64,000 nt of DNA from Tubulanus polymorphus (Eukaryota; Nemertea; Palaeonemertea; Tubulaniformes; Tubulanidae). The stretch spans positions 1,736,001-1,800,000 of the forward strand of contig NC_134028.1 of the NCBI RefSeq assembly GCF_964204645.1. Reading direction: 5' to 3'. The position numbers and the translations under genes were made by a program. Within the stretch, counting starts at the first letter, position 1. Every line of letters begins with the position of its first letter. Below the pieces are notes generated by a model. It was not told where the DNA came from. It made no database searches and worked only from the letters and a program-made list of their open reading frames with translations. Of this stretch, positions 8,766-55,809 are shown in pieces.

Positions 8766-20925
<12,160 letters not shown>

Positions 20926-24545: not shown

Positions 24546-27500
24546 TTACGACTCAGTCGCGAAAAGCATTCGTTTAGCAGTCTGTGAAATGATACCCATC
24601 ACGACTGGATAGAACGCACGATCAGGATCCATTAAATCTAGACAGACGTCGTAATGATTACACTCAGGGAGCAGGTGAACGATTATCTCTTGACGAGACC
24701 CGCTTAAAGCCTGCGATAGATCGGTTGATTGTTCGTACGGTACAGTTTTATCGCAGAGCGGGTGAACTAGAACAATAGGGGGCAGTCTGAAATATAAAAC
24801 AATAGTATCAATACATAATGTATCAGTGATATGCTTCACGTAAGTGCAAAAACCAGAGTTCAAAGAAGTTATTATAAAAGGGTGGCAACGTACCCGGCAT
24901 TTTCGGGTAGATTCTCGACGATAACCGTCGGTGAAAATCTATCGAAATGCTCCGATCCGTACATCACTCGTGACATCGCTGACAAATCTTCAACACCTCG
25001 CGACGTTTCGTATTCAAAATGGCGACCGATGTGATAAACACCGGCTAATCCTGCGAATGAAAACCAAATTCGTAATCAAGGGCGACCGCAGATATAGCAC
25101 GAGAATGAGTGTTTAACCTGTACGAGAATGAGTGTTTAACCTTAACTGTACCACAGCTATTTTTTCATTTTTGAGAATTGGTCACTTGAAACAACAGTGG
25201 AACCATATATATTATAGATTGTGCCACTGTTATAATACACAACCCATATGGTAAAGTTTCCAGGGGGCAATATTGTCCTAATAACATCTAGTGGGCAGCG
25301 GGTGATGTTTTCACTACCATTACATCAGCTTGCTGACTTCATAACATCTGTTCATACTGTAGGCAGTGATGGCTATAGCAGTTATTGGTTGTCGAAGAGG
25401 TTAATAACTAATTGTAGGATAAAAGTGAACATACCTATAACGCAGCGAACTGCTGTAAATAATTCATACAATTCCTGTTGACTTTTCGTCAGTTTCATTT
25501 CGTGCAGCTTAGCAGACGGACGACGGATATACGACGTCGTTATATCTCGCTTGCTATCGTCATCTCCATCGTTTCGTCGTTTCGCGGGACCATCTCGTCG
25601 CTCGGTGTCGACGACATTTCCATCTTTTTCCGTTTCTTCTTCGTCGGAATTTCGAATCAGTTCTATCGAGCCGGAACTCTCGCCTAAACTCGACGCGGCT
25701 CGTCCCAAATTCGAACTGACCATCAAATACGAATCCGTGCTGATATCTAGACTTTGTTCTGGTTCCTCTTCACCGAGTTCAGTAGCTGTTTCCGCTAATG
25801 GAGTACCTTCCTGAACGCTTATACTGACTTCGGCACCACCCGCACCCTCCCCGTCCTCGCCCGCAGCTGCAGCAAATCCGGTTTTATCGTCGGTTCTTTC
25901 TCGACCGTTCAATACGACGAACGAACTCACCGACGCGGCGCTGTCTCCGAAGTTATTTACCGTTTTTTTCTCGTCTTCGCCGTTGCTAGCGTCGCTATTG
26001 TTGCTGCCGCTGTTGTTGCTACTGTCGAAATGTCGATCGATAAACCGCATCGATTCGATGATGCTCGTCGTCGGTAAGGGAGGTCCTTGCAGCATCTGTT
26101 TCGTTAATAACTCTAATATCGACATGACGCACAGATGAGCGCCAGCCGAGTGTCCGATCAATATGATATTCTCCTAAAAAATATCAACCGATTCAAACTT
26201 TAATTATCTGTAGATGATTAATAATCTACGATCTGATGAATAATCTACACAGAGAGTGTTTCATTCGACGACATCAATCTTAAATGATAATAGTAAGCTG
26301 TTTCTCCTAATCGGCCGGTGCATTTTGTAAACTGCAATACAATTTATAATCAGTCCAATTTTAGGAGGTGCCGGGTCTGTTACGGTTAGCTTGATTATGA
26401 TTTCGGACGGTAGAATGAGGATAGTAAAATCATCATACCTTATCGCCGTGATAACTACCAATGTTATTAATAATCCATTCGATACAGTCGACTATATCTT
26501 GAATCATATCATCTACATAACCCTGTAAATATAAAACAACAATTCGGATAAAAAACGCAAGTTGAGTCAAGAAAATTGTTAGGCGACTTGATAAAACACT
26601 CAAAAAAGTTACTTTGAGCTATATTCAATCTGACGTTCAGAAGATGACTATCAGGATGAAGTTGAAATTTCTGATTATTCAATAAAAGCTCAATGAAACT
26701 TTTTGGACCTGTTTTTTTTGCATTGTGGGACTTTAATGGGTTAGAAGGCGAATTCTGGGGGTCAAAAATAGGGACAAAGGTGATAAACAGTTGAATTTTT
26801 GGCGGGGTGGGGTGGTGGGGGCTGGTTCCAGGCTGCTAGTCTGAATACCAGACAATCTACTGCTTCAACAAGGGCAAGATTCTAGACTACCACGCTGCCT
26901 GCCAAGTCTGGTCTTAAATCTTATCAGTTTTTTTACCAGGAATATGAACAGACATCTATAAGTCATCTATAAGATACTTTACCTTTGGATAAATGGAATA
27001 ATTAGGACAGCAAACGATGGCATTGAGATTTTTAGATATTTCGTTACACAGAAGTCCGTACATATTTTTATCCCCGCTGCTCCACGTTCCACCATAAACG
27101 AATATAACGACCGGTAAATTGTCACCGCCAGACGACGACGACGATGATTGCGGTAAATATAAATCTAATAAGTTCTCATTGGATCCGTAACATAAATCCT
27201 AAAATATCAACAATATTATATCATTGATCGCATTTGCAATAATGTCTCTTTCAACTTTGAAAAGGTTGCATAACTTGACATACTCTCAAGCCAAGTTGAA
27301 ATAGACTATAGGATAAATGCGCTTTTAAAAAGCTCTTCGAAAAATCTCAATTTTTTTTCACAAACCTTAATAACTCTGTCCGGTTTCGAGAACGCGTAGA
27401 AACACTTCCATTTCAACATTAAACGTAGATATTTCAATAAACCAAACTTCTTCAATACGGCGTAGTTGACTTGTAGGACTTTTTTCGGATGTAAAGCCCT

Positions 27501-32100: not shown

Positions 32101-34010
32101 TACCAAATTTTAGGATTTTGAAGAACATTTTTTCATCGCAAAAGTCTACACAGCCTCAAAATATCCTGAATCTAAAAACATTTACAAGTTTCTGATTTTC
32201 TGTACGTCGTCCATACTTTTCTGCCGAGTCCTGTTGTCCGAGCATCCTAGAATCTGATGGCGTCTTTTCCAAGAAATATTCAAGAATATTCGAGAAAATA
32301 TCACAACTAGAGAGTTACACTATACCATACAATATATTTATTAACATGATAAATGACAAACTTACATCAACACATCTGAACCGAGAAAAGAGCTCATAAA
32401 TCTCAAATTATCCGTGCACTATGTCACAGTCGATATCAATTAACTTCAAGACTCTACCGGACCATATATAAAAATCCTCGCAGAGTTTTCATTCTTTTGA
32501 ATAATTCCAGTACGGTAGATTGATAAGAATGCCATTCCCCGTGGCATTCAGTTTTACTGATCTGTAGTTTAATGTTTTACATCGAAAAAGTGACAATTAG
32601 AAAATAAAACGATCAATATTAGTACGATATGTGCAGCTTAATAATGCTTCTCTGGGTTGTATATATCAGTTAATTACAATTTACCACAAGACGAACCAAA
32701 CAATAATAATAATAATAAACCTGAACAGAAATTGACAAACTCTTTAGAATTGACTGAACGTACAAATCATGACCGGTATATACTTTTAACACCACACACA
32801 CATTTCTATAATGATGATATTCTAGATAATAATAAATAGGTTTCAAATATAGCTACTAGTTTTTAGGCTAAAAAAAATTGATACCTTGTTTCTCCGCTCT
32901 GCTGAGCTTAAATGTTGACCCGGCCGGCCGCCTATCTACCCTATACATTACTTTTTTTAAATCGTGATCAATTTTACCATAACAGACCCGGCCGCTATAG
33001 AAATGAACTGTTTATAAATTTTATCATATTTTACAAAAATGACCCGGCCGCTGCGGAGAAACAAGGTATCATTTTTGTTTAGCCTTAATTCATTTAGAAC
33101 ATGCTGTTCCAGGTCATTTTGTTTCTCACATGAACATCATCAATCCATAATACAATGTTATTTTTTCTTCTTAAATTACAAAATGCAACACATAACACCT
33201 GTCTATATACAATACATCTATACACACTTATGAATGGAGTTGAAATTAAAATTCAATTTTTCCTAAGAAACACGTGAACGAAAATGAAATTCAACCAAAT
33301 GGAAGCACAGGCTTTACAAAAAGACCAAACTGGTTATATAGAAATTATTATCAAAGATGAAACAGAAATGAATGCCGGCTATAAATAGAAATGATGATAA
33401 CTGTGATGCTTACATTCGAAGAATTGAGAACTGCAATCCCACCAGGAGTGACTTATAGTCAATCTTATTTGATCAAAATAAGCTTGTTTTCAATTGGATA
33501 TTCAGGATCTTGAATTATCAAACAAGCCATGAAAACAATAATTATGTACCGGTATGATATCTTATTAGTAGATTTGTTGCTCAGAGGAAAGTTGGTTAGA
33601 TTTCAATCAAAACGTTGCAGTGTTTAAGTTTTGAACATAAAAACATCCTTTACAGTTCCATATTGGTGAAATATCAGGGATAAAAGTTGCTGTTCTGTTT
33701 GATCAGTGCTACGCAACTGCTTTAAATTCTTAGTAAATAAAAATTCCTAGAAAATTAATGAACTTTATCGGTTTGTCAACATTTTTTCCCTTTACTGGAA
33801 GAAAATCCTGTGCACCACGTCTCGCTTCATATTCAGACGATTTATAGAATATTCAACGAATGTCAAGATTAAAGAATTTGCTGAAAAATCATTATCATAA
33901 TACAAAACAGGAAATATTCTCACATTTCATTGACATAAAAATTCTACAAAATAAAAAATAATTCGTTAAAACTATTCGTCAACTATTTGCGACAGTTCTT
34001 TTCTCATTTT
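32101..34010. other. Intergenic stretch with one MITE
   Basis: Apart from the element at 32866-33084 I see no gene. The downstream part (33087-34010) is AT-rich and should contain the 3' UTR of the SR gene on the minus strand; no single AATAAA on that strand stands out. Confidence 0.4.
32866..33084. mobile_element. Harbinger-like MITE with TTA duplication
   Basis: 219 bases with inverted ends of about 32 bases (GGCTAAA...TTGATACCTTGTTTCTCCGC at the left, its near-reverse complement at the right). TTA is duplicated at 32863-32865 and 33085-33087, the three-base TWA target typical of PIF/Harbinger. The interior carries GACCCGGCCG three times, an unusually GC-rich word in an AT-rich setting. 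Confidence 0.75.
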
Positions 34011-37000
34011 TCAATGATTCAACGGTTCAGCCGAAACGGAACGCGATTTTGATCTTTCGTGTTTTCGAACTTTCTCGACGTGCGGTGAATTCGAACGCTG
34101 CTTGCCGTTTTCCTTCACTTCACTCCGAGATCTCGACCTCTCCTTCACCTCACTCCGAGATCTCGACCTCTCCTTCACCTCACTCCGAGATCTCGATCTC
34201 TCCTTCACCTCGCTTCGAGATCTCGACCTTCGCTCTTTTGACCTCGACCTCGATCGCTGCTCCTTCGGCTCGCTTCTCGACCTTGACCTCTCTTTAGCCT
34301 CGCTTCTAGATCTTGATCTGAAAAACGGATTTGAATTCAATCACTCGCCGTAAAAAAAATCCGTTCACTCTTGAAAACAGGATTCATAGTAGTGATCCTG
34401 AGGCATGAGTACCCGGTGAGCACTTTTATAATGCAAATTGACATTTTCTCATCATTTTAGACCGCAGCCCTCGTCCTTATCCTCAAGAATAGCTAATTTG
34501 GGATATCAAAATATCAAATTAGTAGTGAAAATCAAGAATTATGGGCCTTACTAATTTCTTTCAAAAGTAAGTACTGTACTTTTAAGCACTTAACAGAGAC
34601 TCGCTATGAACCCTGGAATATCAAATTTTACTGTTTAATCCTACCTCTTATGGCACGATTCGGTTTTCGTATCTTTCGACTTCCGAGGACTCGACGCCGA
34701 TCGAGACTTACGATCTCTAGATCCGGAATTACGAGCTCGGGATTTCGAACTGGATTTACGATCGCGAGATCGTGAACGCGACTTCGACGCTGATTTTCGC
34801 GATCCCGATCGTCGGTCGCGCGACGGCGAACGTGATTTCTTCTCCGGCGATCTCGAACGAGTCATCGATCTAAAACGAATAGTTCAATCAGTCATTTTAA
34901 AATCAAAGACTTTTAAACAATTGTTGATTCGAATTGAAGTCAATTAAAGAGTTTGAGAAACCTACTGACCTAGATCTGGACCTGCGCTTGTGACCTCTGA
35001 AAAAAATTATAGATTCGTTGAAGTTTAACACTATCGTATTGTATGTAATAATAGATGCAGTGGGAGGAATTCAGGCAAGTGGATTCAAATATCAAAACCT
35101 GCCACATGTGAAATCATTTGATCGACCAAAACTGAAGTGGGTGAGAGTACCAGTAGTGATTAAAACAGCTGCAACTCAAACACTTCAACTTATGCTGCAC
35201 AATGGATATTTTACAACAGGTTCAATATTAAAACCTTCAATGTAAGAGTAACCCCAGGGCGAGCCTATAATATTCACTTTTTATGAAAAGATACTATTTG
35301 TGGGTTATGTGTGACAACATACACTTTCTGCTTTAATTCAATGTATACAGTGACTGACGCAGACAGGTGACAGTGACGCAGACAAAGTGACACAGGCAGG
35401 TGACAGGAAAAAAATGAATGAGATGAATCCAAGAGCAAAGATATATATATTTTCTGGGCCTCAAACATAAAGTCCTTGCAAAAACGTTCAAAAGATTTCA
35501 AATTGATCTAGTAAAGCAATAGCCAATACTGTCGGAAGAGTTCTGCTTCCAGATTGGCTTCTTGAAAGAGCCATTTTTGCATTCAGGTTTTCATGAAAAA
35601 CACCCTGTAAATCTAAACAAGGCTTTCCTTCAAAATACAACATTCTAGGATTTGGAGATTGGATGAATACGCGATCTGTTGCGCACTGGAAAAAGCCTTT
35701 CATCTGGAAACCATAGCACTTAAATTCGCTTTGTCTATATATCAATAGGCTCAGCGTGAGGTTGGTCTGATAAAACTGAATGAGAAAATTATTGAGTTTC
35801 CATGTAACACATGGAGTATAATTGTATGCAATTCATTGAAATATTTTTAAAATCAATCCTCATATTCACTCAATGACTGAAATTATTGCAGTCATTACAT
35901 CATTTTTAATAATATAAAATAAAATATCGCCAAGTGGATTTTGTGGAGAAGTTGCAGCCCAAATTCTGATATTTTTCATCATTTTAACACAATTTGAGAA
36001 ATTATAAAATAGGGCTTGAATCTATAATGATAATTCTGTAAACTCCACCCTAGTCGGACCCTAGCAACTCAGATGTTTGTTGAAATTTTCCATGTGACAC
36101 TATTTATGAAAGACACCCAACTCGGATATCACTCAAGTTGGACACAATTTTAGGGTCCAAAGAAATCCGAACAATCGTATTTTCAATTGGCAATTTCTAA
36201 GTTTTAAAATCTTAAGCTCAGAAATTGCCAACAGTAAGCACAGAACGATAAGCATATAACAGTATCAGGCAATATCTCATTACTGATGTATGTGTTTATC
36301 GACTGATATTTTCTTTAAGAGGTTTTGTCAACAGGTGTCATCTTTTCAGTAAAGCAATCTGTTCAATTATGCAGCAGGTGGTCACATGGTTCCAATTTCA
36401 ACAATGATTCAATAAAAACTAATTTCTCCAGGCCTTACTGAGCTACACTCTTGAGCTACATGCCAAAAAAACATATTGCATTAACGATTTATGAAAGGAA
36501 AGAACTTCAAGAAACTTTTAGAACATTAATCTAAGTATTTTTTTTTTTCAAATACCAACCTGCTTCGACTTCTACTTCGCCTGCGACGATCACGCGACCT
36601 TGACCTTGATCTGAAGTATACATAAGAATAGATTTAGATAAATCACACCGCACTAATGGATAAGAGTCATGAATCAAGGAAAATCAGCTCGATGACTATC
36701 AGTTTCCAGTCATACCGGTGGTAAAGTAATAGCTGCAAAAAGAAAATCGAGTTATTTACAAATTTTCATCGCGTGAACTTCCCTGGCAGGAAATGTCCAG
36801 CACTTCTGATTCAGCATGGAAACAGGAATACATTGTTTACGAAGGCTTTGGTTCGACTATGTGACTATATGAGATCCAACTTCAATTCATTCTTATTTGA
36901 ATATCATATTTTCCTAATGTAGCAACAGTCGACTAATTAGGAGAGGGTGGGGGGAGGGGTATAGATAGAAGACTAGAGAACAATCAACTAGTAACCAATA

Positions 37001-40000
37001 GAAAGCAATATATCTGAGTTGATGATCTGTGAAATATCAAATCATCTCCCAACCGTAGTGAATAGATTCAGCTCAGCTGTCACCTCTAAAGTATCAGATT
37101 TGAAAAGGAAATCTCGCAGCTGTCTCGGTCAGCAGGTATTATGAAGATTATCATCATATCCGCTGTAGTAAGTAGGAGGCTGCTTAGATATTTTATCGAG
37201 AGAAATATCAACAACAAACCTACGAACGATCGATGGATCCGAATGAAAAAGATGTCAAGGAACTGCTGAAAATTAACATGCAATAAAACAGTTTATACCG
37301 ACAGCCAATAGAACAGCCCAACAGTAGGCCCTATTAAATCCACCATTTTTTCTCATAATATGTAATATCGAAATATTTACCTATATAGCACTGGTTGTTA
37401 ATGCATATTATATTGGTAGTACTTGTACCAGGAGTGGTGGTGGTGGTTAATCCGATTCACGTACACACGTACAAAGCCCAAAAATAGTAGCAGTAGTAGG
37501 AACGTAGCTATAATGCTTTAGTAGTAGTAGTAGTAGTAGTAGTAACAAGCAACTGCCCGTTGGTGGCGACCTCTACCCCGATGTAGTAGTGCGAGGGTTA
37601 ACCTGCAGTATAACGCCATCTATGAGCACACATAGACGCGGCGGTGCCCAGGAAAGAGTAGTAGTGGAAGTAGTGGCGAAGTAGTAGTAGTAGTAGTAGT
37701 TTATTTAAGTAGTACGGTAGTAGTAGTGATGGTAGGTGGTAGTGTTTCTCGTAGTACAGTTCCCTATGGGTATATAATAGAGCAACATATATAACACACA
37801 TCATCAATATCAGAACACATGTAGTATATAAGAGATATGAATAGTACTAAAGTAACAACACTGAATTTGAAAACATGGGCCACTCTCTCCCTACCTTCCA
37901 AACACCGGCTTACAGTTAGAAATGGGAATAACAACCCAATTTTAGGATAGCAAGATCCTTGTATATCCTATGCATTATCGATCTGAAACCACTTCCTACA
38001 TTGCCCATATTTAGTGTGAAGTTTGGACAATCATTGCGACAAAAATGTCTAATCACTGATGTTCAGAATTAGCCATTTGATGTCAAATCAAAATCAAAAT
38101 GAGTAGACTTTATGTTCGCGTGAAGCCTCAAGTATTGAAATTCTAAAGGTGATGTAGGCTGCCGATTGATATTCAAAAGGTTAAGCCTTGATTCGCCTAA
38201 AATAGAACTTATACATAGAATTCCAAATCAGAATTTGACAAAATTGTATTCAATTGAACTAATTCTATCTTTAGAGCCATCAAATTCCACTCACAACTTC
38301 GGAACTGGACATAAATACAAATTCAACCGTAGACAGATTGATTGATCTCAAATAGGAATTCACTCATGAAGTTGAACGAACACGTATTACAGGCCTCGTA
38401 AAGAGCAATGAATACCAACAATATATCGACGACATATTAAAAATGTCTTCTATTGAATAGAGAACTATGCAGCTGACATTGGATACAATAATGAATTAAC
38501 CATTAAGCGATATGATTTATCATTTACTTCGGTTTTGTATAGAGCCGTATAGTTCCATTACACGTTTATTGCCATGAACACCAATCCCATATAAGCAGCT
38601 TACGTAAACCCTGCAGGAATTCGCAACAACTATTTATCATCATCCTCTATGCTTTATGACAAATCATCCGCATTATTTGACCGGCTACATATGAACTACC
38701 GCTGCACCAGTATTACAACCATTTTTCAAAAATACTTGATTCAGTAGTAGTAGCGAGCCCTAACACACAATTGAGGATCCAGTTCTATCCGAGTAGTGAG
38801 TGTTAAAATCAGGAGTCAGTAGAGTCAGATGGAGATGACTGATTATCATTGAGCAGATAACATCACTTTTCATCCATCATTTGTTATGTAAGATGGTAGG
38901 ACATGCTCGGTCCAAGGTTCATAAAAACGACCCCTGTATCTTATTCCAGAAATCTTTTCATCGTGACAGACAGCTTTTTTTTTTCCTTAGTAGAATAACC
39001 TCATGACAGATAAACCACAATTCCCTATTTACAGATGGACAAATTATGGGGTACCGGTACGACGATAAGCGACATGGAAATTCTTCGATATGATACTTCC
39101 CGATAGATTTCAAATTTGCAAAACTGAACTGTTCACTACCCCCGGAAAACCTTTTATATAAAAATCAACTATCGAATAAAAAACAGAGTGGCCCGATGTA
39201 TGATGGAAAATAAAATGATGATACAAATAATTCAAAGTTCCGTATGATTTTTGAAGAAAGATTATATAGTTTTTTCTTTTTAAATTTTCCGCAAATATAA
39301 CCTCACCTGCTGTAGGATCTGTACGGTCGTGACATTCTGGAAAACATTTTAAACAGGCATTCATTTTAATTTGATGGAATTCAAAATTTATAAGTACGAA
39401 AATCGATTTTTTAAAACATTATGATGGAATTATTCGCACACGTGACACTTCAATGGGATCAATCTGTCAGGCGCAGGTATTGTAAAGCGAATGGATACGA
39501 GTGCTTCGGGAAACAATCACAAACTTGTTTCAAATGCCTCATATCGATTATTTTTCAAAATGAAATACAATATCGTACTCGGGACTTGTTTGTTAGATTT
39601 ACTTTGGAACGTTGCCCAAGACTACATTATACGTACTTGATCAGATTAAAAACATGAACAAAAAAATTCAATTCCACATTTGTTGCGGATAGAAATTCAC
39701 GACTGTTGAATTTTGTCGTAAAATAAAAAGATATTTTAACTTACTCATCGACCTTAAGTTGACATTGTTGGTTAAAATAAGTCGATTTCTTCAAATTTTA
39801 CGAGCAAAGTGAAGGCGAAAATATGGAACTTGAAGCATTGAAATTTTCAGCAATCAACATTAAAAGTTTGCAGCCAACTCTTTCAAACTTTTCCTATTTT
39901 TCGAATGTTTTTTCAATCATGGATTGAATTACATTGCATTTGTCAAATATTTACCTTCTCTGGAAACGTGGACCACCGCGACCGCCCCCGTATCGCCCGG

Positions 40001-40661
40001 AGGAACCACGACGGCCCCGCGGCTCGTAAGGACGCGCGTGCTCAACTCTGACTCTTTTACCGCAGATCATTCTGTAAAAACACGAGAAAATAAATAGATT
40101 ATTCAAGGAATAGAGAAAATTCATGTTAATTCAATGCAATGAACTTCTATATGACCCTGTACTGTATTATCAATGACAATCATTATCATAATTAGTAGGG
40201 TCATATAGAAGTTCTTTGCATTAAAGTCACTGATATTATTAAAATATTATCATAATGTTTTTAATAATATCAGTGACTTTCTGATCTCTACTTAGAAGAA
40301 ATTCCCTTATCTACTACTTAGAAGAATTTCAGTACCTGCCATCATTATCTTTTACTGCTCGTTCGGCATCTTCACCATATTTATAAACGAGGAAAGCAAA
40401 TCCCGGTGGATTCCTGAAAATAAACAACCAAAACAGGAATAACGTTCCATAAAATATTGTGAGGAATAAAACTTAATTTTCATTTAATTTATTTGATGAG
40501 AAACCGACTAACCTAGCGACCCAAACATCGATAAGCGGTCCGTGGTAGGCGAATTCCTTCTCCAGTTGAAACTTGCCGATACCTGAACCTAGATCACCAA
40601 CAAATATACGATATCCGCCGTAGGTTCGATCGTGAATCGCGCATTTTGGGGCCCCAGACAT
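34011..40661 (-). CDS. SRSF7: SR splicing factor with one RRM and a long RS domain (SRSF3/SRSF7-like)
   Basis: Nuclear RNA-binding protein that promotes exon recognition and shuttles with mRNA. Eight exons, minus strand: 40513-40661, 40336-40413, 39955-40071, 39307-39336, 36560-36610, 34970-34996, 34645-34869 and 34011-34317. All inner junctions split AG|A Arg codons in the same phase, giving 327 residues. The RRM (about 14-90) has RNP2 YRIFVGDLG, then the WVARNPPGFAFLVYKYG signature of the SRSF3/SRSF7 class with RNP1. A Gly/Arg linker (GRYGGGRGGPRFQRR) follows, then about 200 residues of RS/RE/RD repeats. No CCHC knuckle is present, so it is not a strict SRSF7; the symbol is a nearest label. 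The RS tail is longer than in vertebrate SRSF3. The last exon carries four near-identical RSRSRSEVKE units. The long introns could host poison exons, but I could not identify one. Confidence 0.92.
36611..39306 (-). other. Long SR-gene intron with GTA repeats
   Basis: Noncoding, AT-rich. It contains (GTA)n tracts at about 37521-37544 and 37677-37700 with looser copies between. No exon with RS coding potential and matched splice sites was seen. Confidence 0.5.
40133..40280. repeat. Two adjacent strong hairpins in an SR-gene intron
   Basis: Arms 40133-40158 and 40197-40222 are reverse complements with a single mismatch. Directly beside them, arms 40223-40244 and 40259-40280 form a perfect 22-base stem with a 14-base loop. 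Both lie in the 258-base intron between RRM exons 2 and 3. They could be transposon remnants or RNA structure affecting splicing. Confidence 0.75.
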
Positions 40662-42850
40662 GATTTGAGGAGGAATCTCTCGGCATCAGCGAATTAATAA
40701 GCCGCAGGTTTGCGTTGATTGGTTTAATGGTCGGAAGCGCCCCAGCTGGTGGCCTAGACTGGTTTCCGGTGTTTTGGACAGACAACCAGTCTACTGGTGG
40801 CCGAGCTAGAGTTTTTGATTGGCAGATACCCGCAACAACCTATTCCACAGTAACCTATACCGGAAAATTTGTTTGGTCACTCTAAAACTTAACTAGTGGT
40901 TTTTATTAATATTTCGACACATTGCCGTTACCAGCCTGTGCTGCCATCTCTTAAAATCTTGAAATGACCTCGAAAGAACTGTATGGATGTGTCGACGCGA
41001 TCGATTGGTTCCGAGCGGCAAACCTCCAACTCAGCAACCAATCGAAATAGAGCTTTCAACACCATACCACAGCTGGAAGGACGGTCGGAAGGACGACGAG
41101 AAAAGTAAATTTTCCACCGAATATTTTTCGATAGCCGTGTAAATACGATCACTCTCTCCTCATCGAAGCCTCATTTACTCCTCGACTGATACACCTCACA
41201 GTCACAGTTCGAGATATTGTATGAAAATACTTAGGAGGTAAATAAACAACACACAGCGCCTCAGCAGACAGTAGACACCGTAGTTTCTCTCTATCTAGTT
41301 TTTTTCAGTCATGTTGTTGACTTTTGGTCGATTTTCACCCACCGGATGGATGTTTGTCGTCGTCAATAATGTTGTGTTGCGAGTTTGGTTGACATTGCTT
41401 TAGGATAGAATTAACAGATGAAATCCGTTTGCATTTTTATGTCAGTCATTCTCAGTACCGTGACAAAACAACAGTCAAATCTGGAGCCTACTACTTTAAC
41501 AACGCAGTATAGTAGGTCACACCACATCACATGATGCTCTCCGTTCGTCCCTCCCATCTTGTGACATTTTCATCCTTAAATTTGTTAATAATTCATCGGT
41601 TGATCTGAGGAGGTTATTATGCATCGATTTGACACTAAAATCAGTTGTTGCATTGAGATAACCTCTATATGATGATACTTTAGCGTCAGACGTTGTAGGG
41701 AACTGGTAACAACGACTGGTATTCAGACTATAATGTTACTTACTGTTTATCACACCACATGATGATGCTCTCCGTTCGTCCCTCCCGTCTTGTAACATTT
41801 TCATCCATAAATTTATTAATAAGTCATTGGTTGATCTGAGTGTATTATGCATCAATTTGTTCTAGAGTGAGGATTTTGCACTCAGAACTAAAACTGATTT
41901 CGCACAAACTTGTTAATATTTTTATCTTTCAGTAATTAGTAGTCGGTAGCTTTTTATGACTATTTGTGTCGAATACGAGACCAATAATGCACTTAGTGCC
42001 ATTTTCCTAGGGGACAGGGATTTGATTGATAACGAAGACTTTGAATCAAAACAGTTTCGCTTATCTTAGTAATTGATAGGTTGAGTTAGTTGTTGGAGCA
42101 TGTACGGGCTGTTGCTGCACAGCTGTTTATAATGGTTAAATCTATTTTACCACAGGCAAAAACTAAAGTCAACTTTAGTTTAAGCCTTACTTGTTGTTAA
42201 AAGAAAGAAGTCATTGCTTTCTTAGAATCTTTACCAGGGAGTGTTGAATATTGAGATATTCTGTTGAGCATTTTAAACCACTTCCCAAGTGGGCGTGGTT
42301 TCCCTGGACCCCTAGTTTGGATTTGCTTAAACTGAAATTTATTGAACTTGCGTTTGTCACAAAAAAATTTCCTCGAAAAGAAGGAAAGCCCCCAACACAA
42401 TGCCAGGCAGCCTTTATTTGAAAAAGCTTTGAAATAAGTAATTTCAATAAACATGTATACGTTAGGAGTCTGTGATTAAATGTAGGCGTAGTCATCGATC
42501 AATGGTAGACCATCTATAAATAAAACTTCTATCAACATCGATATATTTGTTTATTTATGTCAATCTATATCTCGCATTCTTTCAGGCTTCAAAATACTGA
42601 CAGAACAACAGTCGATCTAGTATTGGAATGTCAACAAAGACAAGGAAGTTGAATTCCTCACCATTCGAATGAAAGAAACAAATAATCGGGGAAAACCCAA
42701 CGAGTAACTCACTCATCAAACAAATTGAATGATTGCGTAATCAGAGTGGCTCCTATGCCAAATCCTACCCTCGTCATTTACAAAAGACATTTCAACGTAA
42801 TTCGGACGTTTTATAAAAGTTGATCGAGAGCTAAACGCGACGCACACAAA
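40662..42850. promoter_or_regulatory. Divergent region between the SR gene and OGDH
   Basis: No coding exon recognised. Near the SR start lies a short motif cluster (40749-40805) also seen at 58870-58932. A 120-base local duplication lies at 41511-41635 and 41750-41870. The OGDH leader probably ends in the 60 bases before 42851. Confidence 0.4.
41511..41870. repeat. Local direct duplication of about 120 bases
   Basis: The blocks at 41511-41635 and 41750-41870 share ATGATGCTCTCCGTTCGTCC, then CTCCC-TCTTGT and ATTTTCATCC-TAAATTT, ending near TTATGCATC. They differ at scattered positions. Direct orientation, about 115 bases apart. Confidence 0.8.
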
Positions 42851-45824
42851 ATGCAAAGATTACGGACGTTAAGTTTCGGGGCGTTGGCTCCTACGCTTCG
42901 CGCTCTCTCGAGGAATGACATCTCAAGACACCCTCTTCAACAACAGTTAGTCAAGTGTTACAGTTCGCAAGTAGTTGCCGAACCATTTCTCAATGGCAGC
43001 TCTTCGAGTTATATGGAGGAGATGTACAACTCTTGGCTCGAAGATCCCAAAAGTGTACATAAGGTAGGTTATTTCTCATAGGAAGTATTGCTTTAAGACT
43101 TGTCGACTGTTCTTGATTTTTGTATTCGTTCGTCTGGTCTGAAAAATGTTTTAATTTTCCTTGAGAAGATTTCCCCTTGACGTGTTGATAATGAAACGGA
43201 ATTAATGTAATATTTGAAATCTTTTATCATGGACGTATGAATGTCAAATAGAATATTTTTAAATGTTATTTAGCAAACAGTTGTTGCTATAAGCTCCCTT
43301 TTAGCGTAATGCTTAAGATATTTTACTTTTCATTTCAGTCTTGGGATGCATTTTTTCGCAATACAACAGCTGGCGCCCAACCCGGGCAGGCGTACCAACG
43401 GCCACCGTCACTCACTTCAGATTCGATGTCGTTGAGTCCAGTTGCAGCGATGAGTCAAGTGGCATCTGCAGATACGAAGACAATCACAGATCATCTTTCT
43501 GTACAAGCTATCATCCGATCATATCAGGTAATGTACACCGGTTCCAATCAGTTGGTTTCTGCTAACTTTCTGACCATTCGGAGTCTTATGAATCTATTGA
43601 TAAATGCGTGAAGGTTCGATATCTCTTGTGTTCGATATTTGTTCGTTATATTTTATTTCACTCCGTTGGTCATATTTTCGTGTTTAACTAGACTTTACTA
43701 CGAATTGACCCGTTTATTACTCGCTTGACCTATTTCAAGTGTTCATCTGAAGTGTTCTTCCATTAATAATTGAAATGCTTTGTTGTTAAAGTTCAGTGAT
43801 TTCCCTTATTATTTTCCCACATAGTTTATGAATAGGGAAATCGATCTTGTGACTGAACGTTAATTACCACCAATTACTTCAACGTTCATAAATTCTCAGC
43901 AAAACTTCTCGGTACAGCATTAAATATTGAAGCTCTACGTTTTATATTTTTGAAAATCTAAGCCTTTTATTATACACTACTGTACATGCATTGTTTGAAT
44001 TTGATGAATTCATGTATGTTTTGTAACCAGTAACAGAAAGGCAGCATTTTTCCTGTCAGATTGTTACCCACGCAGACGGTAGGTGCCGTAGTCCACTAAA
44101 TTGATTAATTTGAATGACTGACATTCAAAAGTTAATGATGTCGGTTGTCTACTTGACTGTAGTATCAAAAATGATGTTTTAATTCTCTGTATTTCAAATT
44201 CAATTGAAACTTTCTCAAAACACCTGCGATAATTGTGTGTTAACTGCCTCTATTCTATTGATTTATGCTAGAAATTAGATATTTGCTGTTAATTCGTTCA
44301 TTTTGATGTTCGAAATGTTTTTGAAATGTGACCGCCAATACATACATCTGTGTGTTGTAGTGGATGTGTTCTGTTTGTAGGTTCGGGGTCATAACATCGC
44401 TCAGTTAGACCCTCTCGGTATTCTAAGTGCAGATCTCGATTCTTCCATGCCTCCAGAATTAACTTTACAAAACTACCGTCTAGGTAGGTAGTGCTGCCGC
44501 TATCTGCCATTACAGTGGATCAGCAAGAAAACAAAAACACATGTCGTCTGTGTTTTACTTTAATGGTGGCGATTGCATTAAAAATGATGATGGGTATGAT
44601 TGTGAACGTTCACTGAGCTTGATTCTGTTCGTACAGATTTCTGTATTTTGAAATATTTTCTATTTTCATTCATGAAATCATCATTTTTATGTCAAAATTG
44701 CATTTTGTCTTACTGATTACTCATCATAATTAACCCTTTAACATCGATATCTAGACACTCCTATGTGCATCACTCTTGGAATGTTGATGTATTATTTGCT
44801 TCGTTGCATTTTTTTGAAGTTGTAAAGGACTCTCATTCTGTTGCGCTATGTTTATAGAATTCATGTCGAGGCAACTCAATATTTACCACTAAATTTTGCA
44901 TGCTGGCTTAAAACGGTGGTCATTATTAGAATAAGAAAAGTGTATTAAGCCCTGTATGCGCATTGTGTACTGTTTCCTTCGCAGGTTTGAAACTAGAGAA
45001 ATACTGAAACCTGAAGGCGGTCTATAGACGGTCTTTAGTTGCTAAACAGTCAGATCGGCACGTGCAGGACAGGGCTTCAGATTCAGTTTCAATCACAATT
45101 GTTACTTCGTCATATTTCAAGGGTGATGTACACGTCTCCATCTCTCCAGTGACAACCACTACTTTACATATACGTATATACTATACTGAAAACAGACTGG
45201 AAAAACTAAACTAACATGTGTGTATTACACCAGAATAGGCAGACAGACAGGCAGGCTTCCCTCATCAACTACGAACGCCGGCAACAACCGTTGACAAGGA
45301 CCTACATCGCGCTTAAATACAGCTTCCATAGTGGTGTATGTTTATTTATAATTGTAGATCGCCGGGCATACGTTAGCAGCCCTGGACCCACTCGCCTTAT
45401 CACCAAATATAAACGTTCCAGTACAACTGACGATGCCCTATTACCAGTTTGGTAAGACGTAAAAACGTGAAAAAAAAAAATACCTCAAAATACAACAAAT
45501 TGAACGGTGAAATATCTTCCTGCACTCGTTCATTGATATTCTGTGTATGTGTGGTTGTAGCAAGTATTCATTTCACGTCTACGCGTTTTCTTTTCCTGTA
45601 AAAGAATGCTATTTCAGTAGAACTTTATTTTCTAGGGTGTTCGATTCGGGCGATTATCCTGCTCGGGTAGCCCGGAGTTATCTCGGGGAATGCCGTGAGT
45701 CGTTCATTTTGTCCATCACGTGGTACAAACGAGCTCCTCCGCGGGCGAGGCCGAATACACCTCCTCGGAGAGTATATTTAACCCGAGTTGTTCTGAGAAG
45801 CGAATCGAACGCCCTATCATAAGC

Positions 45825-48800: not shown

Positions 48801-51800
48801 CTGATCTGTAGGAACCCTGGTATAGATATATAGAATTTTCTGTGTAGTGGTATGATATATGCTGAGGTTCCGTTTCATCCCCAGTACAAAATTCCATTTT
48901 TATATTATTATGTCTATGTTATCTATCTAACTGTATTATACAGGGTGTCTCAAAAATTGTGTTACCGTAGCTTTAAGATTAATAGTTCATGCTTCGATTG
49001 AAATAGATTTGTTTGGGGGTTTGATTGGTAGATGTTTGCTCGAGGAGGGAATGTTGATATGCAATAGAAAGTCGTGCATGGCTCTGAGCACTAGGCATTA
49101 ATGGAGTCGAACCAATATAAGAAATACAGTTCTTGCATTGTGTTCGTTTATTGATTGATAATCAGCTGCCAGTTGACATGATTTGAGACATTGATATTAA
49201 ATCAACTGAAACAGGTTTCTCCTTAATTAAATTGCTGGTCCGCTTAACTGATATTGTTTCATTCGACTCCGTTTCACATGACTTATCACTTCATTTCAAC
49301 ATTTCATCTCGGCGAACATCCAGGTCTACCAACCTTACCCCCCCCCCCCTAAAAACAATAATAAAGATTATAGTTAATGAATTAGTATCCTTTAAACTTG
49401 GGTAACACATATTTCTGAGACACCCTGTGTATTATGTATCTTCATATATGTGTTTCTGGGTTTTTATTTAACTGGTTGTTTTGCCTGCAGGATGCATCGT
49501 GCTTCACGTTACAGTTGTAATTCACTGGTTTTCGATAGAGTTTTCTATTTTGTAAACTTGGTCACCAGATGTTTCAACTGTTTACATTACATTGTTACCA
49601 GCTGGTCATAGGCAGTCCTATTTAGATTTTGAATTTAGAATCGGAAAACTTAAATCGTCATAATGCATAGAATTTAGAAACGAACATCATATGTTGGTAA
49701 TACATTCTAATAGAAACCAAAATCTTTATTTTCTTGTTTTGCGAAGTTGATTTTTCCAGAAAAAGCCAGAAGCACATTCTCTTCGCTATGCATTCTGCTA
49801 GTGCCACCAATCATCTATACGTATATTAAAATTAAGCCGGACGTAGGCGGACTCGCAAGTCCTTACTACGCCCGGCTTTAAATATGAAATATTTGAATTA
49901 TGGGCTCATTACTTCGAGCTATGACAGACTTAGAACACATTTTAGTTAGGTTGTGGTAAACCTTCAGTTAGAAATTTAAGGTGGATAAGAATCTATGTAA
50001 TTAAGGTGTGGCCGTAGTGGTATTTTAACCGTTTACGAATAGAAATTTATCTGCGTTCGATTTTAACGTCGTATTTCAGGTGAGAATGACCTTGACCGAG
50101 TATTCCGTCTGCCTAAAACGACGTACATCGGCGGAAGCCAGGAGGAGCTTACCCTGCGCGAAATCAAACAACGCCTCGAGGTAAGATTAGAAATGCTGAC
50201 TTGAATATTTTCATCAATCTGAAACGTGTTCCGACGTATGTTTTGTATATTGTAGGATATATACTGTAAAACTGTCGGGGTTGAATATATGTTTATCAAT
50301 AATCTGGACCAGTGCGACTGGATCAGACGAAGGTTTGAACCGCCGGGTATCATGCAAATGTCAGGCGATGAAAAACGTCTGCTGATGAAACGACTCATTC
50401 GATCTACGAGGTAATGAAACCACATATACAGTGCGACCTAGTTACTTCATCGGACCAGAAAATGTGTTTGTTGTGATGATTAAAAATTGTCCTTCTTTGG
50501 ATGAAATTCCAAGTTTTCTTTTTGGAATATCAAAGTTTGTTGTAACCGCTGAATCATTGTTATATCTGAGGTCGTTATATCCAAGTTGCGCTGTATCCCC
50601 ATCAAGCCATTAATTGTTCTGTTTTCTGTTTACGGTTGGATGCTACTGGTCGCTACAATTCGTCACATCATCTGTCCTCGGTGAAATTAAACGTTCAAAC
50701 TAATAATAAATAGCGTTATCAATGATTTTTTGTAGATTTGAAGAATTCCTGGCAAAGAAATGGTCATCGGAGAAACGTTTCGGTTTGGAGGGATGTGAAG
50801 TGTTAATTCCCGCCATGAAGATGGTGATAGATCAATCGAGTAGTGATGGAGTTGATAGTTTTATAATAGGCATGCCTCACAGGTTAGCCCGCGACAAAAA
50901 ACTGTCGAATAGTCGAGAATTTAACATCGGTTTTAAGTAATTCTGTTTGTATCGTTGATTTTAGAGGTCGTTTGAATGTCATAGCGAACGTCTGCCGTAA
51001 GCCGTTAGAGCAGATATTCTGTCAATTCGACTCGCAGTTGAACGCCGAAGACGAAGGCTCCGGCGATGTGAAATACCATCTCGGTTTGTCGCACGAACGT
51101 CTGAATCGCGCTTCGAATAAAAACATTCGCGTTTCGGTCGTCGCGAATCCGTCGCATTTAGAAGCGGTAAATCCGGTCGTGCAGGGAAAAACACGCGCGG
51201 AACAATTCTACCGAGGTGATACCGACGGCAAAAAGGTATTGTCCGATTTAAACTCTCTCCCGAGAGGTATCCGTTGGATTCACGGTCTGATTCTATGTAG
51301 TCGTCTATGGAAGTTTGAATGTTTTATTTACTGCTGTTTTTGAAGTTAGAAAATGTTGCTTTAGTTTAGTTTCAATTTCGTAAACGATCAGTCGATTCTT
51401 CGATGAATTAACTTATGCTTTTAACGAGGAAATTCGTACAAAATATCAGCTGCATTCGTCGGCGTTTACTGACGCTTTGTTCAGTCAGTCGTCTCAATCA
51501 AACAGATTTCATCTAAATCGATGTGGCTTTGCCTGTATTATTCTTATGGATTCCACACTGTCAGAATTGTTGAATTAACCGAACGAACTAACCCCCAGAG
51601 CCGGTTCGCCTCGTCACGACTAACTTTACCCCGGACACCATATTTCACTCTCCGATACGAACGCAGCTATTGGCTGTACATCTCACTACTACATATACAA
51701 TACTGATTGGATGTTGTTGCGATATGTTTGTCTATAGGTTATGAGTATATTGTTACACGGAGATGCTGCTTTCGCTGGACAAGGCGTTGTCTACGAGACG

Positions 51801-54800
51801 TTCCATTTGTCGGATTTACCGGCCTACACGACGAAGGGAACTATTCATATCGTCGTCAACAACCAGGTAACAATAACTAACAATCACTGAAAATCAACGT
51901 TAATCATTTGTGAAAATTGAAAATTAGAAAAATTAACGTTTAAAAATGTGATATAGAATCTCACACTAATGATGAAATATAAAGGATGAAATGTTTTCTT
52001 TGAGCTAATAGTTCATTCAGTTCAATGTTTCGACTATATTCCCTTATAGTCATATTCAGGAATACTGAGTTATGAGAAGCTTAGCAAACTCTGGGGAATT
52101 TCTCTTTTACAGATTGGATTTACAACAGATCCGAGATCGTCGCGATCGTCGCCGTATTGTACGGATGTAGCGCGCGTTGTAAACGCTCCGATATTCCACG
52201 TGAACGCAGACGACCCTGAGGCCGTCATGTATGTGTGTAAAGTAGCTTCAGAATGGCGAGCCGAATGGGGAAAAGATGTCGTTATTGATTTGGTAAGAGT
52301 TATCACAGTTTACAGCTACAGACTTGACTATGACTACCGTTTGAGAGTAGTTAGACTAAAATATCAAAATTCCCTCAAAATCAAAATGACTTCTAGCTCA
52401 TTTTCAATTAGCTACCGAGTGCTATTTTTCGAAGTCAAATTACTCACAATTAAAGATATGAGGTAGTCTGGTCTGCAGCTAGAATGAAAGTTTTTGAATG
52501 ATAAATTTTAGATTTGTGTTTTGGTGTTGTAAAGATGGAGAGAGGCTCTCGAGATGAGGTATATTCACCGACTCAGTTATTGAGTAATGTTTTTATCCGT
52601 TTGTTATATAGGTTTGTTATCGTAGAAACGGCCACAATGAAATTGATGAACCGATGTTTACTCAACCGTTGATGTACAATAAAATCGCGCGTCAACCGAA
52701 CGTCATGAATAAATACGTGGAGAAACTGACATCGGAAGACGTCATACAACGTACAGATTTTGAGGTTCGAATCTTTTGCCCACCGTTCCATTAACGTCTG
52801 TTCAATTGTCCGTCTTTAGTCAGAAATTAGTTTCAGAGTTTTCAACAGGTCTTAAACAATGTTAAGAACGTATATGCCCTAGATGTCTCAATGTTTAGGT
52901 CCGAGTACTACTGATTTCAGTGTTTTCAGTAAGAAATTAACAAGCCAGGTCCCTTCAAAAAACAGGAGGGTCCCATAATGTGTCACAGTCCCTGAAACGA
53001 AAGCTGGTTTGAAAGAACAGGTCCTTAAAAAACGACAGACGGGTCTGAGACCCAGGACCTGGCTCTTATTGAAAACACTGGATTTTGATTAGATTTTACT
53101 CAAATGAAATATAACGATGTTGATTGTTGTAATAGGCTGAAAGAGACACGTACGATCGAATCTGCGAAGAATCGTACGTCGCCGCTAAAAAACAAACTGC
53201 CGTACGAAACAGCGACTGGCTCGATTCGCCATGGTCCGGATTCTTTGAGACTAAAGACGCGATGAAACTGCCGGAGACCGGTGTCGATAAAGATACTCTT
53301 TCTCACGTCGCTGATGTATTTTCGTCGTGTCCCGATGACTTCGCTCTGCATCCAGGTAAAGTCTTAAATAATACGCAGTTGTCTGGCATTAAAAAAAATT
53401 TGGAAAATAATTTTGAAATATTGTTTGTTTGTTTGTCAGGTCTGAAGAGGATTTTGAGAGGTCGAAAAGATTTGTCGAAGAAATGCATGGCTGATTGGGC
53501 GATGGGAGAGGCCTTAGCGTGGGGTACCCTTCTGAAAGACGGGGTACACGTCAGACTCAGCGGTCAGGATGTCGAACGTGGAACATTCAGGTATAAAAAG
53601 GCTTCTTACAAATTAAAGGGATTGTTTTGATTTTTGCTGAAATAAGTTTCATGGATGTTTCAGTCATCGTCACAACGTTCTTCACCATCAGAAGATTGAT
53701 AAAGAAACGTACGTTCCATTGAATCATCTTTATCCAGAACAAGCGACGTACACTGTATGTAACAGTTCATTGTCTGAATACGCTGTTCTCGGTAAGTTCA
53801 CAGACAATCATTCTCTGCTCTACAAGTTATGCCTTTTGTATTGTAACAAAAAAAACCGATAATAATGGTAGGCCCAATGAGGAACTATTTTACAATGTCA
53901 TTTTTTTCTGTGAAAATATTTCTTGGTTACATGTGTATTGATGAATTTATTCAGTGTGCAATTTTTCAAATTTTCTTATTGGAGTTGACATTTTAAGTTT
54001 GTTTTATTTGATAAGTTCTTTGTTTTATCTTTGCCAAGTTTGCCACTCTATTTAATGTCTATAGTTTATGATTGTGTTTTTATTGTAGGATTCGATGTTG
54101 GTTATTCTCTGACTAACCCGAACTCGCTGGTGATTTGGGAAGCTCAGTTCGGTGATTTCCACAACACTGCGCAGTGTATAATCGATCAGTTCATATCATC
54201 TGGTCAGAGCAAGTGGGTTCGTCAGAGTGGTATCGTGCTACTCCTGCCTCACGGAATGGAAGGAATGGTACGATGATTCTGATTATTCATAAAGGCTTTA
54301 CGATACTTGCTTTGTTTATGTAGATGTTCATATTGATAATGTATCTCTCCAGGGACCGGAGCACTCCAGTGCTAGATTGGAGCGTTTCCTGCAAATGTCC
54401 AGCGATGATCCAGATCATTTCCCTGTAAGTTTAATTTATCGACACGACTTACTCAACTCATTTAATCAATCATACAATTCAGCCACATCCAGTTCCATGT
54501 TTTGATCTTTATGATATTGAATTTAATATTTTAACTGAAGTTCGTTCAATAAAATGATTGTCTGCATTTTGTAGGTTATCGGGCCAAACTTTGAGATGCA
54601 GCAGCTTCACGAGATCAATTGGTTTGTAGTGAACTGCACAACGCCTGCAAATTATTTCCACGCGATGAGACGACAGATTGCTTTACCTATACGTAAACCG
54701 GTTAGTTGAATTCAACCCCTTAGAATCCCTGCAGCTGATAATGGATAGCATCGGTTCAATCTTTTAATAAATCGTATTTCAGTTGATCGTCATGTCGCCG

Positions 54801-55809
54801 AAGAGTTTACTACGTCACCCGGAAGCTCGTTCATCGTTCGATGACATGCAAGACGGTACCCACTTCAAACGAGTTATAGCCGACGATAGCGCCGTCAATG
54901 AAACCCCGAAAAAGGTCGAAAAGAACATATTCTGTTCGGGCAAGATTTACTTCGAATTGATCAAAGAACGAGAAAAGAAAGGATTAGTCGAGAAAATAGC
55001 GATTCACAGAGTTGAACAGGTTTGTGTCTGAAATGGATAATTAGCATCTGTCTTTATTGGTTTAACTAGTTCCAATCCTTACTACACTTACAACGGAAGA
55101 ATAATTGTTATAACCAGTTCAGCTGTTGTTGCTGTTATCTGAATTGATATTTATATTTGCAGTTAAGTCCGTTCCCGTATGATTTAGTAAGGGAAGAGGT
55201 CGTGAAATATCCGAATGCTAAAGTATGCTGGGTCCAGGAAGAGCATAAAAACCAAGGAGCCTGGTCGTATATACACCCTCGTATGGAAGCTGTACTCAAC
55301 AAGTATCACAATGGAGAACGTTGCTTGTAAGTTCTTTTTCATTTAGATTCCAATTGCTAGAGATCAGCTAGTTTCAGTTCTATATTACTGAGTAATACGT
55401 CGCTAATATGGGTTAAAGCCTCACTTTAGCGTATCTCCCGAGGGTATCCTATTCTAAGCTGCTCATTCGGGCTAATCGGGCGGTTCTTGCCATTGAAGAG
55501 TCTCGAAACTCAAGGTTCGAATTCCTGCCGAGGGAGGATGCCCTGTAACGACCCAGCTAGGAGCAGATTCCTGGTAACTTGGTTGAGTACGAATACTTTA
55601 GTGTAATAGTATGAGTGTCTCATAACACACAGCGGTATTGGGACTACGTTCTTCAAATAATCAAAATCTTAAATCTTAATCATGTATTTTGTTTATTTAA
55701 TAGTTATGCCGGACGACATGCTTCAGCTGCGACCGCGACAGGCATTAAACAGATGCACACGATCGAATCGAACCAGCTACTGAGAGACGCGATGACCATT
55801 ATCAAATAA
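42851..55809 (+). CDS. OGDH: 2-oxoglutarate dehydrogenase E1 component
   Basis: Thiamine diphosphate enzyme of the TCA cycle (2-oxoglutarate to succinyl-CoA) in the mitochondrial matrix. Nineteen exons: 42851-43063, 43339-43527, 44381-44483, 50080-50180, 50256-50410, 50736-50882, 50965-51235, 51738-51866, 52113-52292, 52612-52764, 53136-53355, 53440-53590, 53664-53791, 54089-54267, 54353-54424, 54575-54700, 54783-55019, 55163-55326, 55704-55809. All phases close, giving 1007 residues, close to the usual ~1020. The N terminus is Arg/Ser-rich (presequence), then [21 protein letters not shown]. Later landmarks: [100 protein letters not shown]. Donor of exon 10 (GTTCGA) is weak. AATAAA at 56965-56970. 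Not OGDHL-specific; one gene is expected. Confidence 0.96.
45358..45451 (+). CDS. OGDH: Alternative, probably mutually exclusive OGDH exon
   Basis: Bounded by an acceptor (ATTGTAG) and a strong donor (GTAAGAC). It is 94 bases, entering in phase 0 and leaving in phase 1, exactly like the 103-base exon at 44381-44483. It encodes [17 protein letters not shown] and then [14 protein letters not shown], aligned with [18 protein letters not shown] and the rest of the constitutive exon: same GH..A.LDPL core. Including both would add 31 codons plus one base and break the frame, so only one can be used per mRNA. Mammalian OGDH and fly Nc73EF also have alternative exons in this region, linked to calcium response. 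Use of this exon gives a protein three residues shorter (1004). The product would still be the E1 subunit. Confidence 0.8.
45827..45863. repeat. (TA)n microsatellite
   Basis: About 18 TA dinucleotides, starting GATATATAT, in the large OGDH intron. Confidence 0.95.
46411..46879. mobile_element. Inverted-ended DNA element, 469 bases
   Basis: Left end GGTGATCCAAAAAAGCAACA and right end reading on the minus strand GGTGGTCCAAAAAAAACAAC, continuing CTCATAC against GTCATAC. Interior noncoding; around 46710 it holds a sequence (GGAACCTCGTTATAATGA) resembling the end of the Tigger-like element at 20502. No clear target duplication seen. Confidence 0.55.
48506..48543. repeat. Perfect 17-base hairpin
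   Basis: Arms 48506-48522 and 48527-48543 (ATCAGATCATAGAAGTG and its exact reverse complement) around a TATT loop, in the large OGDH intron. Confidence 0.9.
48941..49427. mobile_element. mariner-like MITE, 487 bases
   Basis: Left end CAGGGTGTCTCAAAAATTGT then GTTACC; right end GGTAACACATATTTCTGAGA then CACCCTG. Inverted ends of about 26 bases with a few differences. TA precedes the left end; the right flank reads TGTA, so the duplication is not perfect. CAGGGTGTC ends are common in mariner relatives. No transposase frame inside. Confidence 0.7.
49832..49882. repeat. Imperfect GC-rich palindrome
   Basis: TTAAGCCGGACGTAGGCGGA at the left mirrors TACTACGCCCGGCTTTAA at the right around CTCGCAAGT. 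Several bulges. Stable stem-loop in an AT-rich intron. Confidence 0.6.
55327..55703 (+). other. OGDH last intron with tRNA-like (SINE-like) segment
   Basis: Around 55440-55560 the sequence has a tRNA-gene-like layout: a loose A-box region (TAAGCTGCTCATTCGGG) and about 50 bases later GGTTCGAATTCC, a near-perfect B box, followed by a Pol III-unlike tail. It does not fold into a convincing tRNA, so a diverged tRNA-derived SINE is the best guess. Confidence 0.3.

Follow-up and report, generated by a model that had tools for sequence, protein, structure and literature searches.

A tandem-duplicated OGDH exon in the nemertean Tubulanus polymorphus: a likely switch between Ca2+-sensing and Ca2+-blind E1 subunits that probably diverged separately from the vertebrate exon pair

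Does the OGDH gene of a nemertean carry two interchangeable versions of the exon that encodes the Ca2+ loop of the E1 subunit, and if it does, is this the vertebrate exon pair or another one? According to PMC7969005, exons 4a and 4b of vertebrate OGDH are mutually exclusive, exon 4b carrying the DADLD motif that is essential for Ca2+ activation and exon 4a being Ca2+-insensitive, and it depends on the exon used whether mitochondrial Ca2+ can act on the tricarboxylic acid cycle. Sensitivity to Ca2+ is lost when the Asp residues of DADLD are substituted (PMC9177970). An earlier note on the stretch analyzed here, a window of 64,000 nucleotides from Tubulanus polymorphus, had proposed that OGDH exon 3 is followed by a diverged copy of itself, and that a known alternative exon pair lies at the same place in mammalian OGDH; the vertebrate work bears out the latter point (PMC7969005). 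We consider it likely that the two exons are tandem duplicates of which one or the other is spliced in, that they yield E1 forms with and without a response to Ca2+, and that they diverged separately from 4a and 4b. PMC7969005 connects the evolution of the vertebrate pair with endothermy and with a specific mechanism of splicing. If the pair described here diverged separately, then animals gained Ca2+-sensing and Ca2+-blind forms of E1 more than once, and the comparison would separate general features of such systems (a switch in the protein, enforcement by the reading frame) from lineage detail (branch points, intron size). Among the titles and abstracts listed in searches of open-licence PMC literature, none reports the exon pair outside vertebrates.

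The gene is complete and intact on the + strand. Its ATG is at 42851 and its stop codon ends at 55809, with 19 coding exons and an unbroken product of 1007 amino acids; its exon borders are predicted from the DNA alone, having been picked from splice consensus, frame and likeness to human OGDH (tblastn). The coding part of exon 1 (42851..43063), supported by tblastn to human OGDH and by the spliced frame, is followed by exon 2 (43339..43527), which leaves in phase 0 and is the upstream partner common to both alternative exons. Exon 3 (44381..44483) has 103 nt and encodes a peptide of 34 residues that carries SADLD, aligned to DADLD, the Ca2+ motif of the human protein (7wgr/8i0k). An intron of 874 nt (44484..45357) separates it from the second alternative exon, exon 3b (45358..45451), which has 94 nt, encodes 31 residues without the acidic loop and lies within the stretch of 5.6 kb that separates exon 3 from exon 4. 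Exon 4 (50080..50180) enters in phase 1 and is the common downstream partner. The spliced frame and similarity to human OGDH place exons 5-9 at 50256-50410, 50736-50882, 50965-51235, 51738-51866 and 52113-52292, exons 10-14 at 52612-52764, 53136-53355, 53440-53590, 53664-53791 and 54089-54267, and exons 15-19 at 54353-54424, 54575-54700, 54783-55019, 55163-55326 and 55704-55809, all likewise on the + strand. When the isoform with exon 3b is spliced together, the N-terminal, E1, pyrimidine-binding and C-terminal domains are all matched in Pfam. Both the N-terminal domain (PF16078) and the DNA of exon 3 find a single match in the 267.8 Mb, 77-contig assembly, in each case among the best candidates of a first-pass search; resting on those candidates, the one-place matches do not strictly exclude an OGDH paralogue in the assembly.

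The stretch at 45358..45451 is a tandem-duplicated, diverged copy of exon 3. Its coordinates as proposed in the earlier note prove exact to the base, the alignment pairs the two exons, and both open from phase 0 and exit in phase 1 as described there. The motif GH..A.LDPL, which the two had been said to share, is present with all seven of its fixed residues at exactly two places in the six frames of the window, these two; the next best is one match of 5/7, and no third copy at 6/7 or 7/7 was found elsewhere in the six frames. A local alignment of exons 3 and 3b scores 54, a value reached by none of 20,000 shuffles (maximum 43). When 2,014 phase-matched AG...GT candidate exons from both strands were ranked, exon 3b came fifth with its score of 54, ranks 1-4 being taken by exon 3 itself in four overlapping windows and the next candidate scoring 30. 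As a control, all 19 OGDH exons were compared with 159 ORFs from the introns of the gene (+ strand). A look-alike that rises above shuffle level there exists for exon 3 alone (54, against a maximum of 35 in 30 shuffles), and for the other 18 exons none was found among these ORFs. In an all-against-all BLASTP comparison of the 1,581 ORFs of the window, the pair has an E value of 1.3e-4 per query, which amounts to some 0.2 chance hits across the full set of queries. It stands 30th among the 33 pairs listed; the 29 better ones fall in four stretches resembling local DNA repeats. Similarity by itself is therefore not overwhelming, and the case needs position, phase and splice sites in addition to it.

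The splice sites are as good as had been claimed. With matrices built from the 18 other junctions of the gene and the ranges for true sites obtained by leaving one out, the exon 3b acceptor scores 9.0 (true sites 1.2 to 12.9) and is equalled or beaten by 2 of the 637 other AG dinucleotides in the gene, and its donor scores 8.1 (true sites 4.2 to 10.1) and is equalled or beaten by 2 of 845 other GT. The borders read tag/GTTCGG...GTCTAG/gtaggt for exon 3 and tag/ATCGCC...AGTTTG/gtaaga for exon 3b, the latter with acceptor ATTGTAG/ATC and donor TTG/GTAAGA. The two are neighbouring homologous exons with matching phases, and one can stand in for the other, as in mutually exclusive exons that stem from tandem duplication.

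The reading frame permits one of the two exons only. Exon 3 alone gives a protein of 1007 amino acids and exon 3b alone one of 1004, and the forced choice put forward in the earlier note holds at the level of the frame: if both exons are included, the junction with exon 4 reads TGG TGA and translation stops at codon 201, and if neither is included it stops at codon 211, in exon 5. Premature stops with many exon junctions downstream are expected to lead to nonsense-mediated decay, so transcripts with both exons or with neither should be targets of that pathway. If these transcripts stop early and are cleared in this way, the choice would be enforced at least through the reading frame, and exactly one copy is predicted to be present in the mature mRNA.

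Several devices could make the splicing itself exclusive. In human OGDH the branch points are found 25-41 nt away from the 5' splice site (PMC7969005), and in the vertebrate pair the intervening intron is short, its branch points are distant and its AG exclusion zone is long. In contrast, the intron between exons 3 and 3b measures 874 nt and its AG exclusion zone 24 nt, within the 15-69 nt found at the gene's other acceptors, and its first YTNAY match, a candidate branch point, lies 74 nt from the 5' splice site. The length of the intron and the 24-nt zone speak against a distant branch point of the vertebrate type, of which no candidate arrangement is visible, and incompatibility between U2 and U12 sites is unsupported, as both exons have GT/AG borders whose scores fall in the range of other sites in the gene. 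A search for intronic RNA pairing, carried out in 60-nt windows with the downstream intron taken up to 46500 and in this one genome, gave best duplexes of -30.5 and -33.2 kcal/mol, for which 10/12 and 11/12 dinucleotide shuffles, respectively, were equal or stronger. Inverted repeats are present near the alternative exons. The acceptor of exon 4 (50080) reads cag/gtgaga, a consensus-like 5' splice site abutting the 3' splice site of the long intron; this resembles recursive splice sites and may merely reflect the encoded Gly-Glu.

What would the choice between the exons change in the enzyme? With exon 3, the E1 subunit would carry the SADLD loop and be Ca2+-responsive, or partly so. With exon 3b it would keep the same conserved core without the acidic loop, and on that account we predict it to be Ca2+-blind; the exon 3b peptide is three residues shorter than that of exon 3 and holds a single acidic residue, the D of LDPL. 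PMC7969005 lists SADLD for several nematodes, rotifers and insects, reports that Ala at the first position of DADLD abolishes sensitivity, and calls the effect of Ser and the Ca2+ affinity unknown, so exon 3 could itself be a weak Ca2+ responder. The strongest competitor of a Ca2+ switch, unlikely as we judge it, is that the exons are used alternatively and that the relevant difference lies in contacts with E2/E3 or in other regulation. The Ca2+ response of exon 3 is only putative, as it carries SADLD and not DADLD, exon 3b has changed at positions beyond the loop as well, among them the Arg that precedes GH, and E1-E2 contacts have been placed in the N-terminal region (PMC10003691), where the loop sits. 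Yet exon 3b has lost every acidic residue of the motif, the same difference that sets the sensitive and insensitive vertebrate exons apart, and we continue to favor a switch in Ca2+ sensitivity.

The earlier note allowed that such a switch was ancient in bilaterians or had arisen more than once, and of these a single ancient pair has become the less likely. The pair resembles vertebrate 4a/4b in lying in the same gene and at the same site of the protein, in that one of the two copies has the Ca2+ motif, exact or nearly so, while the other lacks it, and in a combined length that is not a multiple of 3 (197 nt here; PMC7969005). The order is reversed, however: in vertebrates the Ca2+-insensitive exon lies upstream and the DADLD exon downstream (PMC7969005), whereas here the exon with the motif, which reads SADLD rather than DADLD, precedes the diverged one. 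A shared ancestral pair should keep its insensitive copy on the same side, so the divergence of exon 3b, at the least, was probably separate. The lack of the distant-branch-point device points the same way, and DADLD without duplication, reported in Lottia (a mollusc) and Amphimedon (a sponge) in PMC7969005, fits with this.

Sequence comparison with the human exons lends itself to both histories in part. Over the whole exon, the scores are 60 for exon 3 with 3b, 115 for exon 3 with human 4b and 47 for exon 3b with 4a, followed by 42 for 3b with 4b, 68 for 3 with 4a and 80 for 4a with 4b, the human 4a sequence being provisional throughout; either grouping is allowed by these values. Beyond the core, exon 3b is closest to its own exon 3, the part after LDPL scoring 31 against exon 3 (shuffle P 0.0006) and 18 against the provisional human 4a (P 0.10). 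Drosophila Nc73EF is said to have alternative exons for the same stretch of protein. Orthology with 4a/4b through a single early-bilaterian duplication kept since then would account for the shared site, for the loss of the acidic motif from one copy in both cases and for pairwise scores compatible with grouping exon 3b with the provisional human 4a, but the inverted order, the affinity of the part after LDPL for exon 3 and the DADLD reported without duplication in Lottia and Amphimedon make it rather improbable. These short sequences do not settle the origin, and the pair probably diverged separately from 4a/4b. By a narrow preference, we read this as convergence, in which a non-vertebrate animal separately duplicated the exon for the OGDH Ca2+ loop, one copy becoming Ca2+-blind, with the order of the vertebrate pair inverted and its distant-branch-point device lacking.

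The same residue is encoded at 13 of the 31 aligned codons of exons 3 and 3b, by the same codon at only 4 of them, and nucleotide identity is 45/93. Where both exons have the same residue with a fourfold-degenerate codon, the third base is shared in 1/6 cases. With pS at 0.87 and pN at 0.40, a contrast that partly reflects the constrained branch of exon 3 itself, synonymous sites are saturated, and the matches at 13 residues despite this saturation argue that exon 3b has been maintained as protein. When exon 3 was evolved neutrally to equal nucleotide divergence in 200,000 simulations, about 1 in 10,000 remained open and as similar.

The core conserved among bacterial relatives is kept. When bacteria were scanned for the family, the window protein by itself detected no relative, and an alignment to E. 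coli SucA matched at least 591 stretches, of which the best 80 were taken. The alignment comprises 78 rows, 77 of the 80 fetched loci plus E. coli (three without the anchor HRGRLN were left out), and since only the best 80 matches were used, most of the rows stand close to E. coli SucA. Among these bacterial E1 rows the core kept in exon 3b is found as G in 78, H in 60, A in 74, L in 63, D in 72, P in 78 and L in 77, and the residues kept farther on as P in 50/78 and L in 76/78; the Arg preceding GH, present in 53/78, is missing from exon 3b. The three-residue deletion falls in the SADLD segment, in columns found in 0/78 rows, with a position that depends on the aligner, as a pairwise alignment splits the gap. 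It is very unlikely that exon 3b is a decaying, unused relic of the duplication. Such a relic might have lost an Arg common in the family and might show codon usage as undistinctive as it has (156 of 1,486 open intronic windows score equally well), and its use in RNA is a prediction, but its frame is open, both splice sites are strong and its residues have been kept while synonymous sites became saturated. Least credible of all is a mainly poison exon that, added to exon 3, lowers OGDH output through the stop at codon 201, a role for which the conserved protein sequence of exon 3b would be unneeded.

Other features of the window lie outside the gene. On the - strand, joined ORF pieces at 40329-40685 match RRM_1 (E 8.7e-9) and an ORF at 34011-34340 is RS-rich; at a guess, these pieces (34011-40685, -) belong to one gene for an SR-type splicing factor, which seems to face OGDH head to head. 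In human, the OGDH exon pair is under the control of SR proteins (PMC9177970). A tandem-repeat stretch at 15570-15980, in which frames on both strands match each other, gives the top self-similarity in the ORF comparison, and the ORFs at 32318-32407 (-) and 25385-26173 (-) share a short, weak similarity with an E value of 0.002 per query, which is at chance level over 1,581 queries. Judging from motifs only, the ORF at 17295-18317 (+) resembles a JNK-type MAP kinase and that at 6453-7661 (-) a RhoGAP protein.
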